From an uncultured Lachnospiraceae bacterium (GTDB lineage: Bacteria > Bacillota > Clostridia > Lachnospirales > Lachnospiraceae): a DNA stretch of 64,000 bases. The stretch is taken from the NCBI GenBank assembly GCA_902781505.1, contig CACZJL010000008.1, forward strand, positions 1 through 64,000, read 5' to 3'. Under the pieces are notes generated by a model that saw only the letters and a program-made list of their open reading frames with translations, had not been told where the DNA came from and did not search any database. Positions within the stretch are counted from its first letter, which is position 1, and every line of letters begins with the position of its first letter. This document shows, one piece after another, positions 49,026 through 54,894 of the stretch. Both the position numbers and the translations under genes were made by a program.

Positions 49026-49874
49026 ATGATTCATAAAAAAATAACGATTGAAATTGATTATGAAGCACTTGGTATTGAGCACAAGGGACCTGAAGCGTTC
49101 TTTGTGACTTATATCAGGGATCGTTTCGAAGATATGCAGAATCCGTTTCACAGACCGTTTGTGCTGATTGCACCGGGTGGCGGATTTGATCACTTAAGCC
49201 CAAGAGAGGGAGAGCCGGTTGCGTTAGAGCTGCTTAAGCGCGGATTTAACTGTGCGGTACTTCATTACAGCCTTGCACCGAATACTTTCCCATGTGCGCT
49301 CTATGAAGCAGCCTGGGCGATTGATTATGTGAAAGATCACGCAGCAGAATGGGATGTCAATCCGCATCGCGTGATTATGGCAGGCTTCTCAGCAGGAGGC
49401 CATGTGGCAGCAGGTCTTGCGACTCTTTATAACGAGCCGGAGCTTGCGGCATTTGAAAAAAATGTTTTAGACAGAAGTCCGGAAGATATCGTTCCGGATG
49501 GACTTCTTTTAGGTTATCCGGTTATTCTTTCCGGTAAGCATGCGCATGAAGGCTCTATTAAGAATCTTTGCGGCGATCGACTGGAAGAATTAAAGGATTC
49601 CATGTCTCTTGAAAAACGTGTTGATAAGTCAACACCTAAGACCTTCATCTGGCACACCTTTGAAGATAACTCCGTGCCACTTGAAAACAGTCTGGCCTTT
49701 GTATCTTCATTAAGAAAGCATGAAGTTCCGTTTGAATATCATGTGTTCCCACAGGGCTGTCACGGTCTTTCTCTTGGAACAGCAGATACAGACCTCAAGG
49801 ACGGCAGACACAACAATCCGCAGGTGACTGTATGGCCTGAGCTTTTTGAGAACTGGGTTAAAAACAATATCTGA
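49026..49874 (+). CDS. Alpha/beta hydrolase (BD-FAE/xylan-esterase-like)
   Basis: A cytoplasmic serine hydrolase of 282 aa without signal peptide. The oxyanion region is LIAPGGGFDHLSPREGE, the nucleophile elbow is GFSAGGH, a likely acid residue lies in EDNSVPLE, and the histidine is in GCHGLSLG. It resembles the esterases that remove acetyl or feruloyl groups from imported sugars. It lies 8 bp after the DUF1015 gene in the MarR operon and is followed by a terminator. The substrate cannot be told. Confidence 0.85.
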   Translation: MIHKKITIEIDYEALGIEHKGPEAFFVTYIRDRFEDMQNPFHRPFVLIAPGGGFDHLSPREGEPVALELLKRGFNCAVLHYSLAPNTFPCALYEAAWAIDYVKDHAAEWDVNPHRVIMAGFSAGGHVAAGLATLYNEPELAAFEKNVLDRSPEDIVPDGLLLGYPVILSGKHAHEGSIKNLCGDRLEELKDSMSLEKRVDKSTPKTFIWHTFEDNSVPLENSLAFVSSLRKHEVPFEYHVFPQGCHGLSLGTADTDLKDGRHNNPQVTVWPELFENWVKNNI

Positions 49875-49885
49875 TGAATCAGATT

Positions 49886-49931
49886 GCCTGCGTTAACCGC
49901 TTATTTTAGCGGCCTGACGCAGGCTTTTTTA
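49886..49931 (+). terminator. Intrinsic terminator after the hydrolase gene
   Basis: GCCTGCGT and CCGCT pair with AGCGG and ACGCAGGC (with a short internal loop), followed by TTTTTT. Confidence 0.85.
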
Positions 49932-49955: not shown

Positions 49956-52304
49956 ATGAATAAAAAACTATATGCATTGATGAACTGGCCGGAAATCGAA
50001 GGCGTTGTCTACTCAGAAGAGGAGCATCCTTACTCTATCTTAGGAGGAAAGATGACAAAGGATGGATTCCTGATTCAGGTATTCCGTCCGGATGCGGTCA
50101 CTGTGACGGCAGTCTGGTCTGGTGGCAGAAAGAAAGTGGAGCTTGAAAAGGTAGATGAGGGAGGCTTCTTTGCGGGACTGATTCCATCTTCAAGAAAAGT
50201 AAAATATACACTGATCGTCGAGAATAAGAATGGACGTAAGTTTGATTTTACGGATCCATACTCGTTTGAAGTAAAACTTACAGATGCACAGAAACGTGCA
50301 TTTTGTTCCGGTTCCTTAAAGAAACCGTGGGAACTTTTAGGTGCTCACGGTATGAAGGTTGATGGTGTGGAAGGCGTTCGTTTTGTGACCTGGGCACCAG
50401 AGGCCGTGCGTGTGTCTGTTGTTGGGGAATTTTCCGGGGAACAAGGCAGAGTGCTTCCAATGGAAAAGGATGAGGAATCCGGCCTGTTTGTGCTGTTTGT
50501 TCCGGGCATATCAGAGACCTGCGAATATCAGTATGAAGTGAAGGCCAGAGGCGGAGCGGTTGTCAGAAAAGATGATCCGTATGCATGTGATTCGGAAGCT
50601 TTTGCGTTCCACGATGAAGAGTGGATGGCAGAGCGCGCAAATTCTGACGTGCAGGATGACGCAAGAAGTATTTTGACGGTTGAACCGGCGATTCAGTCTG
50701 GAAAGGTGTCCTTTTTTCAGAAGCTGAAGAAGGAAACGCTGCCGGCAGCGGTGGAATATGGATTCGATTCCATTTTCATCAGGTCGCCTCTTAAATACAG
50801 ATCGGATGCAGCCAAGGGGAATACTGCTTATTTATGTGATTCCAGATTTGGTACGGCTAAAGAACTGAAGGAGTTTGTGGATGCGGCGCATCAGTCCGGG
50901 GTTTCTGTTCTGATGGATTTGAATGTAGCCTTTATTACAGGTGATTCTGAAGGACTGGTGAACTTTGACGGAGCAAAAGCGTACGAGATGTTTGTTACAA
51001 GAACAGACAAGTATCCCGGCGAGCTTTTATTTACACCGGATTTCTCAAAGGCTCCGGTCCGCATGTACTATAAGGGGGCTGCGGCCTACTGGATGAGTCA
51101 TTTCCACATTGACGGATTCCGTCTGGCCGATGTGGCAACAACGCTGTATCTCGATTATGGAAAGAATCCCGGTGAGTGGATTCCGAATATCTATGGCGGA
51201 AATGAAAATCTCTATGCAATCAGCTTTTATCAGGAGTTTAACAGAGCGGTTCATAAGGTGCCCGGTGTAATTACAATCGCACAGGAAGAGAGTGCCTTCA
51301 GCTCATCTACAGGAACAACAGAGGAATCTCTTGGATTTGATTTCAAGTGCAATGAGGACTTTACGGATAACCTGCTGTCCTTTGAAATGCAGGATCCATT
51401 ATTCAGAAAAGGCGTTTATGACAAACTTTCTGAGTCTATGATTTATCATTACATGGAGGAGTTTATTCTTCCTATGAAGGCTTCAGATCTGAAGCGTAAC
51501 GGTGCTGACACGCTTGTCCTTGCAATGCCGGAGGAAGATGAGGCGTTAAAGGAACTTGACGCGAAGCTGGCTTTATCGTATCTTTACACAATGCCAGGCA
51601 AGAAGTTGGTGGAGCAGGGTGTGACCGGGCTCGCTGACGGAAGCGTTTTAAAGCGACTGAATCAGATGTACAAAGAAATTCCGGCATTTTCCGAACTCGA
51701 CAGCTATGAAGAAGGTTTTGCCTGGGTCTGCCAAAATGATGCAGAACGCACTGTGTTGGCTTACTTAAGAAATGATAGTAAGGACAACCACTATCTGGTG
51801 ATCTGCAATTTCACTCCGGTGGATAGAACAGGTTATCGCCTTGGCGTTCCTTATTCCGGTTCTTATAAGGTGATATTTGACAGTGCCAATGCAAAAGTTG
51901 AGCCTTCTTCTGAGTTTAAGTCTCATCTGTGCAAATGGAATCACTGTGAAGATTATATCGATGTAGATGTGAGCGGGCTTTCCTGTCTTGTTCTGTCTTA
52001 TCGCGCCTTTGATGAGTTTGAGAAGGAGGAAATCCGTATCAGACAGAAAGCAGAAGAGGCGAAGCGTGAGGCGTTAAAGGAGAAGGAAGAGGCGAGACTT
52101 CTTGAGGAAGAAGCTAAACGCAAGGCTGATGCAGCGCATGCTGCTGAAGAAAAGGCAAAGCAGGCTGCTTTGGAAGCGCAGAAAGCAGAGCAGGCAGCGA
52201 CCTTAAAAGCAAAGGAAGCAACAGCACTCAGCCGTACAATTGAAAGAGAAACAAAGAAGAAACTGGAGGCCCTGGCGAAAAAGTTCTCCGGTTCTGAAAG
52301 GTAA
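49956..52304 (+). CDS. Catalytically degenerate GlgB-like protein with coiled coil
   Basis: The architecture is that of glycogen branching enzyme: an N1 domain (HPYSILGG, about 20-110), a CBM48 domain (WAPEAVRVSVVGEF, about 130-225), a GH13 barrel (about 245-600) and a C-terminal beta domain (about 620-695). The catalytic set is gone. Region I is MDLNVAF (Asp321 kept, Phe326 for the usual His). Region II is DGFRLADVA with Ala391 where the Asp nucleophile should be. Region IV, normally LSHDE, is MKASD (507-511). A new highly charged Glu/Lys/Ala-rich tail of about 85 residues (697-782) is predicted as coiled coil. The start is ATG 49956 behind GGGGGTAA. It may be a glucan-binding scaffold or regulator; this is inference. 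mscS follows 5 bp later. Confidence 0.85.
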   Translation: MNKKLYALMNWPEIEGVVYSEEEHPYSILGGKMTKDGFLIQVFRPDAVTVTAVWSGGRKKVELEKVDEGGFFAGLIPSSRKVKYTLIVENKNGRKFDFTDPYSFEVKLTDAQKRAFCSGSLKKPWELLGAHGMKVDGVEGVRFVTWAPEAVRVSVVGEFSGEQGRVLPMEKDEESGLFVLFVPGISETCEYQYEVKARGGAVVRKDDPYACDSEAFAFHDEEWMAERANSDVQDDARSILTVEPAIQSGKVSFFQKLKKETLPAAVEYGFDSIFIRSPLKYRSDAAKGNTAYLCDSRFGTAKELKEFVDAAHQSGVSVLMDLNVAFITGDSEGLVNFDGAKAYEMFVTRTDKYPGELLFTPDFSKAPVRMYYKGAAAYWMSHFHIDGFRLADVATTLYLDYGKNPGEWIPNIYGGNENLYAISFYQEFNRAVHKVPGVITIAQEESAFSSSTGTTEESLGFDFKCNEDFTDNLLSFEMQDPLFRKGVYDKLSESMIYHYMEEFILPMKASDLKRNGADTLVLAMPEEDEALKELDAKLALSYLYTMPGKKLVEQGVTGLADGSVLKRLNQMYKEIPAFSELDSYEEGFAWVCQNDAERTVLAYLRNDSKDNHYLVICNFTPVDRTGYRLGVPYSGSYKVIFDSANAKVEPSSEFKSHLCKWNHCEDYIDVDVSGLSCLVLSYRAFDEFEKEEIRIRQKAEEAKREALKEKEEARLLEEEAKRKADAAHAAEEKAKQAALEAQKAEQAATLKAKEATALSRTIERETKKKLEALAKKFSGSER

Positions 52305-52309
52305 TTGAG

Positions 52310-53146
52310 ATGGATGCAGTAAGAGAGGAGTTACAACAGCTTATTGCTAAGATTACAGGACAGATTGGTCAGTTTGGTTTTCAGCTGATTGTTGCAGTTC
52401 TGGTCTGGGCTGTTGGACGAAGGATTATTAAGTGGCTTGTCAATAAGGTTTTAGCTACCTTTTTAGAGAAGACAAGTCTTGAAAAGGATGTTTATCATTT
52501 CATTCTGTCACTTGCTAGAATCGTACTTTATATTCTGTTGATTCTTGAAATTCTGACGGTTGTCGGAATTCAAACAACGAGTATGCTGACCATGCTTGGT
52601 ACTGCTGTTTTAGCTGTTGGTATGTCCCTGCAGGGGAGTTTGTCAAACTTTGCAGGCGGACTGATTCTTCTGATTTTTAAGCCGTTCCGTGTCGGAGATT
52701 ATGTTGAGTCTCAGACCTGCGAAGGTAACGTAGAGGCAATCGGAATTCTTTATACAAAGATTATAACGATTGATCAGAAGACCATTTTCATGCCAAATGG
52801 TGCCTTGATGAACAGTAATATTACGAACTACTCCGCAACCGGTATCAGAAGACTCGATATCGAGATTGGAGTACCTTACGACACAGATTTAAAGCTGGTT
52901 CGACGTATTATGCTGGATGTACTTGCGGAAGATGATCGGGTAATTAAAGATAAGGATCAGGAAGTTGTATTAAAGAAGCTTGGCGACAGTGCAATTGTGA
53001 TGGAGAGCCACGCCTATGTATACAGAAGCGATTTCCTTTCAAGCAAATTCAGTATTACAGAGAAGTATTTTGAAGCACTTAAGGAACATGGAATCAGTAT
53101 TCCATTCCCTCAGATGGATGTGCATATGGATCAGAATCAGGACTGA
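52310..53146 (+). CDS. mscS: Small-conductance mechanosensitive channel (MscS)
   Basis: A 278-aa channel protein that opens under membrane tension to release solutes at osmotic downshift. Three membrane helices (about residues 18-38, 60-85 and 88-118) include the pore-lining helix with the glycine/alanine-rich LGTAVLAVGMSLQGSLSNFAGG-type pattern; the cytoplasmic beta domain follows (FKPFRVGDYVE, FMPNGALMNSNITNYS). The length is normal for the minimal MscS. It lies 5 bp after the GlgB-like gene and is followed by a terminator. Confidence 0.94.
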   Translation: MDAVREELQQLIAKITGQIGQFGFQLIVAVLVWAVGRRIIKWLVNKVLATFLEKTSLEKDVYHFILSLARIVLYILLILEILTVVGIQTTSMLTMLGTAVLAVGMSLQGSLSNFAGGLILLIFKPFRVGDYVESQTCEGNVEAIGILYTKIITIDQKTIFMPNGALMNSNITNYSATGIRRLDIEIGVPYDTDLKLVRRIMLDVLAEDDRVIKDKDQEVVLKKLGDSAIVMESHAYVYRSDFLSSKFSITEKYFEALKEHGISIPFPQMDVHMDQNQD

Positions 53147-53183
53147 ATCCATGAGCTGATTACACACAGATTAATTTAAGGAG

Positions 53184-53217
53184 AGCCGTCAGGGTGAAGC
53201 CCTGGCGGCTTTTTTTA
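53184..53217 (+). terminator. Intrinsic terminator after mscS
   Basis: AGCCGTCAGGG pairs with CCCTGGCGGCT around TGAAG with one G-U pair, followed by seven T. Confidence 0.9.
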
Positions 53218-53262
53218 CACGCCTGCACCCTGAAACGGGAGTAGATTGGACTCATCTGTCAG

Positions 53263-53276
53263 GTGTAACGTTTCAC
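53263..53276. promoter_or_regulatory. LacI-operator-like palindrome
   Basis: GTGTAA-CG-TTTCAC is a 14-bp palindrome with central CG and one mismatched pair, the general form of LacI-family operators. No regulator of that family is encoded in the window. Confidence 0.25.
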
Positions 53277-53277
53277 A

Positions 53278-53305
53278 ATATGAACAAGAGATGTTCATAT
53301 TTTTC
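53278..53305 (+). terminator. Hairpin with U-rich tail upstream of the VTC gene
   Basis: ATATGAACA pairs with TGTTCATAT around AGAGA and is followed by TTTTTCCCCTC. It may be an attenuator or a weak second terminator for the mscS transcript. Confidence 0.4.
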
Positions 53306-53401
53306 CCCTCTTTTAAACACAAGTTGAACACAAAATCTCGGTATTCTAAGTCCTGTAAACAACAAGACCTCAACAAATATGAAAAGAATGGGGGTGTGGT
53401 T

Positions 53402-54247
53402 ATGGCAATTGAAGTGTTTAACCGATATGAAAAGAAATATCTGGTCCCTATCGAGAAGGCCGGGGCTCTGATTAAGGCGATGTCGTTTCGAATGGAACCG
53501 GATGCGTTCAATGTAGGTGGAGAAACCTACAAGATTACCAATATCTATTATGACACTGCCGACAGCGCACTGATTCGGACCTCAGTTGAAAAGCCGGTTT
53601 ACAAAGAGAAGTTCAGGCTTCGGGCTTATGGGGTACCAAATCTGACAGATCAGGTCTTTCTTGAAATCAAGAAAAAGTACAACGGAAATGTTAACAAGAG
53701 AAGGACGACAATGCCACTTATACAGGCGTATCAGTACCTGAATCAGGGGCTGAGGCCGGTGTCGGAACAGACGGAGAGTCTGGTGGGAGAACAGGCTGGA
53801 GGACAGGTGCTAAAGCAGGCGTCTGCTCGGAAGATTAACTGGCAGGTGCTTAAGGAAATTGATTATATGAAGTCACTGTATGGACTGGTTCCAAAGGCTT
53901 ATATCTCCTATGACAGAATGGCGTACTTCGACAGAGAAGATAAGAATTTCCGCGTGACGTTTGATACGAATATTCAGACAAGAAGAAATCATCTTCGTCT
54001 GGAAGACGGAGCGTACGGAGAACAGCTTTTAAATAAAGGTATGATGCTGATGGAGGTGAAAATCCCGGGTGCGATGCCACTTTGGTTTAATCATTATCTG
54101 ACAGAACTTGAAATCTATCCGACTTCATTTTCAAAATATGGAATGGAGTATAAACGTTTCCTGGCTAAAGAAGCGCAGGAACAGAAACGAAAGGGAGAAT
54201 TATTATGTTGGAATCCATCTTTACAAGTACAGGCTCACTTAGCATGA
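53402..54247 (+). CDS. VTC-domain (polyphosphate polymerase-like) protein
   Basis: A 281-aa tunnel-fold protein related to the catalytic domain of yeast Vtc4. Family-typical features are the opening NRYEKKYLV, NIYYDT, the KEKFRLRAYG basic strand, LEIKKKYNGNVNKRR and the late acidic strand MLMEVKIPG. The ligand is expected to be a phosphate polymer or nucleotide, but bacterial members paired with DUF4956 are mostly unproven. The open frame extends to 53246; the ATG at 53402 behind TGGGGG fits the family N-terminus. Its last 43 bp overlap the DUF4956 gene in another frame. A CotH kinase gene, often seen with this pair, is absent. Confidence 0.85.
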   Translation: MAIEVFNRYEKKYLVPIEKAGALIKAMSFRMEPDAFNVGGETYKITNIYYDTADSALIRTSVEKPVYKEKFRLRAYGVPNLTDQVFLEIKKKYNGNVNKRRTTMPLIQAYQYLNQGLRPVSEQTESLVGEQAGGQVLKQASARKINWQVLKEIDYMKSLYGLVPKAYISYDRMAYFDREDKNFRVTFDTNIQTRRNHLRLEDGAYGEQLLNKGMMLMEVKIPGAMPLWFNHYLTELEIYPTSFSKYGMEYKRFLAKEAQEQKRKGELLCWNPSLQVQAHLA

Positions 54248-54894
54248 GTGATGCGTTATTTTCAGTGATTGCGGCACTTATGTGCGGCTTTGTTATCGGG
54301 TTTGGCTATATGCTGGCCTGTAAAAAGAAGGGCTTTGGAAAGGATTTTATTATCGGACTTGTTCTGATTCCTAGCATTGTCGCAGTGATTATCATGCTGA
54401 TTAATACTAATGTAGCGGCTGCGCTTTCCTTAGGCGGTGCGTTTGCTTTAGTTCGTTTCCGCTCAGCACCTGGTAATGCAAAAGATATTGCTACAGTATT
54501 CTTTGCAATGACAACAGGCCTTGCTTGCGGACTTGGATATATCCTTTTTGCCTGTGTGTTCACAATTGTTATTCTTGCAGTTCTTCTTGCTCTTACAATG
54601 TCAGGTTTTGCAGAGAGAGATGAAGAACTCAGAATGCTTAAGATTACAATTCCCGAGAATCTTAACTACACAGATGTATTTAAGGAAGTTCTCGAGAATT
54701 ATACAACAGTGGCACAGCTTCGCAAAGTGAAGACAACGAATATGGGAAGCATGTTTGAGCTTACTTATACGGTGAAGCTTAAGGAGGCAGATGAAAAGGA
54801 AATGATCGATGATCTTCGTACAAGAAACGGTAATCTTCCAATCATCCTTTCTGAAATTATCGAGCGAGCTGATGCTTTAAATTCAGCGTATTAA
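54205..54894 (+). CDS. DUF4956 membrane protein
   Basis: A 229-aa membrane protein with about four helices in the first 135 residues, including the conserved GGAFALVRFRSAPGNAKDI loop, and a C-terminal cytoplasmic domain of about 95 residues with a ferredoxin-like pattern. DUF4956 proteins are regularly encoded beside VTC-domain proteins, as here, and are thought to form one membrane system; the function is unknown. AAAGGGAGAA precedes the ATG, which lies inside the VTC gene, so translation is coupled. A terminator follows. Confidence 0.88.
   Translation: MLESIFTSTGSLSMSDALFSVIAALMCGFVIGFGYMLACKKKGFGKDFIIGLVLIPSIVAVIIMLINTNVAAALSLGGAFALVRFRSAPGNAKDIATVFFAMTTGLACGLGYILFACVFTIVILAVLLALTMSGFAERDEELRMLKITIPENLNYTDVFKEVLENYTTVAQLRKVKTTNMGSMFELTYTVKLKEADEKEMIDDLRTRNGNLPIILSEIIERADALNSAY

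Follow-up and report, generated by a model that had tools for sequence, protein, structure and literature searches.

The window analysed here is a stretch of 64,000 nucleotides (contig CACZJL010000008.1) from an uncultured Lachnospiraceae bacterium. Its forward strand, which also carries the neighbouring hydrolase and mscS genes described below, contains between positions 49956 and 52304 an open frame for a GlgB-like protein of 782 aa, beginning with ATG shortly downstream of an RBS-like GGGGG motif. The gene stands in the order serC-serA-MarR-DUF1015-hydrolase-glgB-mscS, which recurs with small variations across the Lachnospiraceae, beside intact as well as dead GlgB proteins, around the core serC-serA-DUF1015-glgB2-mscS. 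Because this order is common to both, we regard the protein, called pseudo-GlgB in the following, as orthologous by position to a second, active enzyme (GlgB2) and not as a stray paralogue.

A gene for an mscS-family channel (52310-53146) starts 5 nt past the pseudo-glgB stop codon. Of 59 loci compared, a set in which some species occur more than once, 54 have a same-strand mscS directly 3' of glgB2. An obligate functional tie between the two proteins is unsupported: MscS-like genes with 37-41% identity persist in four genomes of the same genus that have no GlgB2, and in genome G008, where GlgB2 is gone, an mscS-like gene is still found near ruvX and an RNase J gene. The channel, which remains where GlgB2 has been lost, is therefore not its obligate partner. 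Downstream of mscS follow two genes, one for a protein with a VTC domain (53396-54247) and one for a DUF4956 protein (54205-54894). Together with mscS they form a trio (52310-54894) that recurs in the group of GlgB2 loci described below as the remodelled clade, whereas most active GlgB2s were seen without it.

On the upstream side, an alpha/beta hydrolase gene (BD-FAE/Abhydrolase_3; 49026-49874) tracks pseudo-GlgB within the genus, being present in all four genomes with it and in none of the seven without. Between the two genes lies a strong terminator-like hairpin with a T run (49886-49930), which was not seen in relatives; it could terminate the preceding transcription unit or act as an attenuator, and no clear promoter was found behind it. 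Rfam searches gave no RNA element near pseudo-glgB, no tRNA was found within the 64-kb window, and plasmid records yielded only GlgBs with less than 60% identity.

Domain architecture and active site

Pseudo-GlgB retains the domain order and fold of GH13_9 branching enzymes such as those of M. tuberculosis (3k1d) and E. coli (1m7x). N-terminal helices (LYALMNWPEIEGVVYSE) and the GlgB_N domain (49956-50261; Pfam match at residues 12-102), the most conserved part of the remodelled clade, are followed by a CBM48 domain (50337-50585; residues 128-210), a catalytically void GH13 barrel delimited by Pfam, alignment and AlphaFold2 (50661-51635), and a C-terminal beta domain of the Alpha-amylase_C type (51678-52007; Pfam and AlphaFold2). 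The Pfam match of the barrel is weak and barely significant (26.5 bits), and the protein stays below the curated cut-offs of the NCBIfam GlgB equivalog models (383.6 versus 741 bits and 357.3 versus 463.95 bits). The closest solved sequence is 3k1d, which was also the top Foldseek match (TM 0.77 by query) of a confident AlphaFold2 model (pLDDT 87.8, pTM 0.84; 53-row family alignment as input). The initial annotation, made from the letters of the DNA alone, had described an open frame with the N1, CBM48, GH13 and C-terminal folds of GlgB intact, and Pfam, AlphaFold2 and Foldseek bear this out.

Residues were matched to those of E. coli GlgB by L-INS-i alignment (E. coli numbering, Ec, given first). 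The entire catalytic triad is gone: the nucleophile D405 corresponds to A391 in region II (DGFRLADVA, 51111-51137; alignment and AlphaFold2), the acid/base E458 to Q443 in region III (IAQEES, 51273-51293; PDB sequence match and alignment), and D526 to S510 in region IV (PMKASD, 51471-51488), where H525 has also become A509. In region I (DLNVAF, 50916-50933), H340 is replaced by F326. Around the pocket, W298, Y300 (N289), W336 and M483 are missing, the W298/Y300 loop is lost, and a loop of approximately 24 residues around Ec570-600 is absent, its loss point lying after G555 and before the C-terminal domain (51618-51623). D335 (D321) and R403 (R389) are retained. The alignment thus confirms the alanine at the nucleophile position, the phenylalanine in place of the region I histidine and the altered region IV that had been noticed before, and adds the loss of the acid/base, which had been overlooked. 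A shifted alignment with E444 as the acid/base is excluded, because Ser446 at the T461 position (Ser in 16/16 clade members) and Phe448 at the W463 position fix the register of region III. Judged by its residues, pseudo-GlgB is near certain to be catalytically dead. Within the barrel, the segment LYLDYG, W408, N411 and parts of a GGNEN segment are invariant, while the pocket is scrambled.

The CBM48 domain has changed as well. The position of its conserved tryptophan (Ec W159) is E162 in the window, where 15 of the 16 clade members have an aromatic residue, and Ec K189 is lost throughout the clade (Q192 in the window). The two positions presumably match the Trp and Lys with which the CBM48 of AMPK beta contacts glucan. 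With these changes the domain may no longer bind glucan, and E162 in particular argues against simple glucan binding via the classical CBM site in the window species.

The protein ends in a tail of about 95 residues (687-782), and not of 85 as first estimated; its coiled-coil character held up. A heptad periodicity of the Ala type (power 0.097 at 102.5 degrees, compared with 0.044 for the 95% null from shuffles) coincides with an AlphaFold2 prediction of two helices joined by a turn, helix 1 at residues 687-729 (52014-52142) and its hairpin partner helix 2 at residues 737-778 (52164-52289). A hendecad (11-residue) repeat is excluded (power 0.006 at 98 degrees). Two distant clade members, pseudo-GlgB and L034 (the copy of Eubacterium AF22-9), are both predicted to form this hairpin with near-identical helix lengths (about 43 and 41-42 residues). 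Within the family, most GlgB2s end in a tail irrespective of their catalytic state, and tails are absent or short in the GlgBs of the order's other families. Because active relatives also possess it, the tail predates the catalytic loss rather than marking it. Active GlgB2 tails are mostly less regular, with low-complexity segments, and the regular hairpin with a conserved end is specific to the remodelled clade; the tail is thus of older origin and was regularised in this clade. Accordingly, when we asked whether homologues share both the losses and the tail, the tail proved to be widespread, active relatives included, whereas not even the four same-genus orthologues have a catalytic set in common.

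Phylogeny and selection

The phylogenetic tree, calculated with active-site columns removed and the long-branch rows L020, L063 and L064 omitted, places pseudo-GlgB inside the tailed Lachnospiraceae GlgB2 clade, whose conserved locus and charged tail it shares. The window copy groups with three copies of the same genus (support 100/99) inside the 13-row remodelled clade (100/100), the sister of which, L040, has an intact active site (99/98). By parsimony, the catalytic state changed at least six times on the tree; if triads are never regained, we read at least seven losses in the tree set, in addition to the unplaced L020, L063 and L064. The remodelled clade is united by a change of H340 to Tyr or Phe, and as L033 and L034 carry H340Y with the triad kept, catalysis was lost stepwise. 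These two proteins (L033:8458-10941 and L034:10001-12379), with DWNGAY in region I, are possibly enzymes of altered specificity.

Lost catalytic residues were also seen in GlgB2s outside the clade of the window, in L051, L052 and L022, in L016, L009 and L011, and singly in L056, L020, L063 and L064, and these losses are apparently independent. At L057:9947-12519, a GlgB2 is spread over two frames of a MAG contig, by assembly error or by a genuine frameshift.

Sequence comparisons show that pseudo-glgB is under purifying selection and that N1 and CBM48 have replaced the barrel as the conserved parts of the protein. Same-genus pairs among L004, L005 and L006 gave a dN/dS (NG86) of approximately 0.10-0.13 for GlgB2, compared with approximately 0.06-0.07 for the canonical short GlgBs that these genomes also encode, and frames are intact in nearly all rows despite deep divergence. 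The ratio of barrel to CBM48 distances exceeds 1 in the remodelled clade (1.34) and in two further dead clades (1.41 and 1.84) and lies below 1 in active GlgB2s (0.78-0.81) and short GlgBs (0.52); the corresponding barrel/N1 ratio is 1.62 in the remodelled clade versus 0.35. Of 108 positions in N1 and the N-terminal helices, 29 are invariant in the remodelled clade, including the clade-specific residues R44, D46 and V48 (FRPDAV) and K65. At the same time, the window species shares only 39% identity with its genus mates in pseudo-GlgB versus 75% in canonical GlgB, a high divergence that also fits a partly relaxed constraint. The initial view of a dead enzyme, as opposed to a decaying gene, is strongly backed by the missing common catalytic set, the low dN/dS and the intact domains, and its reuse is supported by the conservation shift and the new clade-specific invariant residues.

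A putative accessory role in glycogen synthesis

The canonical GlgB of the window genome, encoded on contig C11, has every catalytic residue, as have 20 of 20 further GlgBs of relatives that were checked beside it. Within the genus, glgA, glgC, glgD, glgB and pseudo-GlgB occur together in four genomes and are all missing in the other seven; the glycogen loci and pseudo-glgB lie on different contigs in the window genome. A single event of combined loss in reduced genomes, some of them incomplete, could account for this pattern, and its weight is further limited because glycogen genes are widespread across the family. Outside the genus, GlgA and GlgD were present in 22 of 22 examined genomes with a remodelled GlgB2, bringing the overall count to 26 of 26. 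All 26 also contain another GlgB-like gene, whose residues were read in nine and are intact there; in G020 this second gene appears split. Three of the 26 remodelled copies (L033, L034 and L061) keep the triad but not H340. Where a GlgB was the sole copy found in a genome and was read, it was always intact.

An active site that was lost, repeatedly in relatives, in a protein that is nevertheless under selection suggests a non-enzymatic helper of glycogen storage. Our preferred reading, to which we assign a probability of roughly 0.55, is that pseudo-GlgB is a GlgB2 copy turned into a non-catalytic accessory subunit of glycogen synthesis within a well-supported subclade. In this mechanism, N1, CBM48 and the retained barrel surface would anchor the protein to the glucan as it grows or to a partner enzyme, the Ala-rich hairpin would self-associate or dock to GlgB1 or GlgA, and the protein would organise branching or particle assembly instead of catalysing. 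The role of a glucan-binding scaffold or sensor that had been proposed initially is plausible in that it fits the linkage to glycogen genes, but the losses of the CBM48 Trp and of K189 count against it, and a protein-protein role via N1 and the tail is an equal possibility to glucan binding.

Comparable precedents for such an accessory subunit, by analogy, are GlgD beside GlgC, ISA2 beside ISA1, and PTST1. GlgD (PMC10395257) is likewise a non-catalytic paralogue in the same pathway and genomes, but belongs to another enzyme family as the regulatory paralogue of GlgC, and its gene adjoins glgC. ISA2 (PMC12510319, PMC3787081) is a dead GH13 paralogue beside an active one, and pseudo-GlgB has such an active paralogue in the GlgB of contig C11; ISA2, however, is a member of a plant debranching family with a demonstrated ISA1 complex. 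PTST1 (At5g39790; PMC2653042) resembles pseudo-GlgB as a proposed scaffold that combines a glucan-binding module with a coiled coil, but it has no barrel, and its starch binding has been shown. Of these scaffold features, pseudo-GlgB has the coiled coil, but not a CBM48 with the conserved Trp.

The strongest competitor, which we consider unlikely, is a dead branching enzyme recruited outside glycogen metabolism. This happened to MKIP1, a class III branching enzyme of plants, which is no longer catalytic and now serves in the splicing of plastid introns (PMC13172542). Both proteins have a branching-enzyme fold, lost triad residues and retained constraint, and MKIP1, which is devoid of two triad residues and of branching activity, is nonetheless essential (PMC13172542); it differs in its plant lineage, its own insertion (MSR), its partner MatK and its splicing role. 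The neighbours of pseudo-glgB, with serine biosynthesis, DUF1015 and MscS and without glycogen genes, and the loss of the CBM48 contact residues would also suit such a recruitment, whereas the joint absence of pseudo-GlgB and the glycogen genes of other contigs in the genus, the presence of GlgA and GlgD in every genome with a remodelled copy, and the dispensability of GlgB2 for the persistence of MscS speak against it. A regulatory decoy, which would inhibit branching by binding to glucan ends or to GlgB1 or would serve a different pathway as a glycogen sensor, would explain the invariant surface segments of the barrel, and the frequent glgB2-mscS pairing could couple polymer state to osmotic control. 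This seems improbable to us, as pseudo-GlgB contains no signalling domain and MscS can persist on its own; inhibitor and activator are not separable computationally.

Slow decay under relaxed constraint, with the frame open only through recency or coupling to the downstream mscS, is in our view slightly less probable still. The very fast divergence relative to canonical GlgB of the same genomes and the short distance to the mscS start agree with decay, but a dN/dS of around 0.1, intact frames in nearly all rows, domain-specific conservation with new invariant residues, a confident fold and the survival of mscS without GlgB2 do not. The least probable reading is that some activity on alpha-glucans persists at a weak or altered site, for example with D392 as a shifted nucleophile acting with E444. 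Clade members without D405 do have Asp or Glu one position on, and L033 and L034 retain the triad beside H340Y. In pseudo-GlgB, however, all three acids are replaced (A/Q/S), the same-genus copies show G, E/D and L/F in this order, D392 directly precedes a helix predicted at residues 393-397 and looks like its N-cap, and W298, Y300, H340, H525 and the Ec570-600 loop are missing.

The accessory role in glycogen synthesis may extend beyond the window species. It is possible, though we propose it only tentatively, that Lachnospiraceae GlgB2 is a recurrent, selected pseudoenzyme family of mainly non-catalytic function, scaffolding glucan or enzymes through N1/CBM48 and the hairpin, and the first bacterial counterpart of starch assembly factors of the ISA2/PTST type; a mainly non-catalytic function would account for catalysis having disappeared on about six or more occasions from a gene that itself persisted, as did its locus. 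The long GlgB2s of Butyrivibrio and others share the locus, the N-terminal motif and usually the charged tail with pseudo-GlgB, although most retain all catalytic residues. In Butyrivibrio hungatei, an 824 aa glgB2, likened to pseudo-GlgB by length class only, is annotated as branching enzyme beside a short glgB1 (PMC5716241). Because gut and rumen genomes list such long GlgBs as branching enzymes, glgB copy numbers there may overstate branching capacity.

Dead GH13 paralogues as such are already known, and a survey in Chem Rev mentions that in a GlgA-GlgB fusion of chlamydiae the branching domain is inactive. Full-text searches of open-access papers turned up no account of a bacterial GlgB pseudoenzyme like the present one. 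New are the Lachnospiraceae lineage, the repeated origin and the hairpin tail. The role of non-catalytic paralogues in storage glucan is now mainly a plant topic (ISA2, PTST). If confirmed, our findings would make it possible to study in bacteria, among them cultured strains of Lachnospira multipara (such as ATCC 19207 and LB2003), how such paralogues shape storage glucan.
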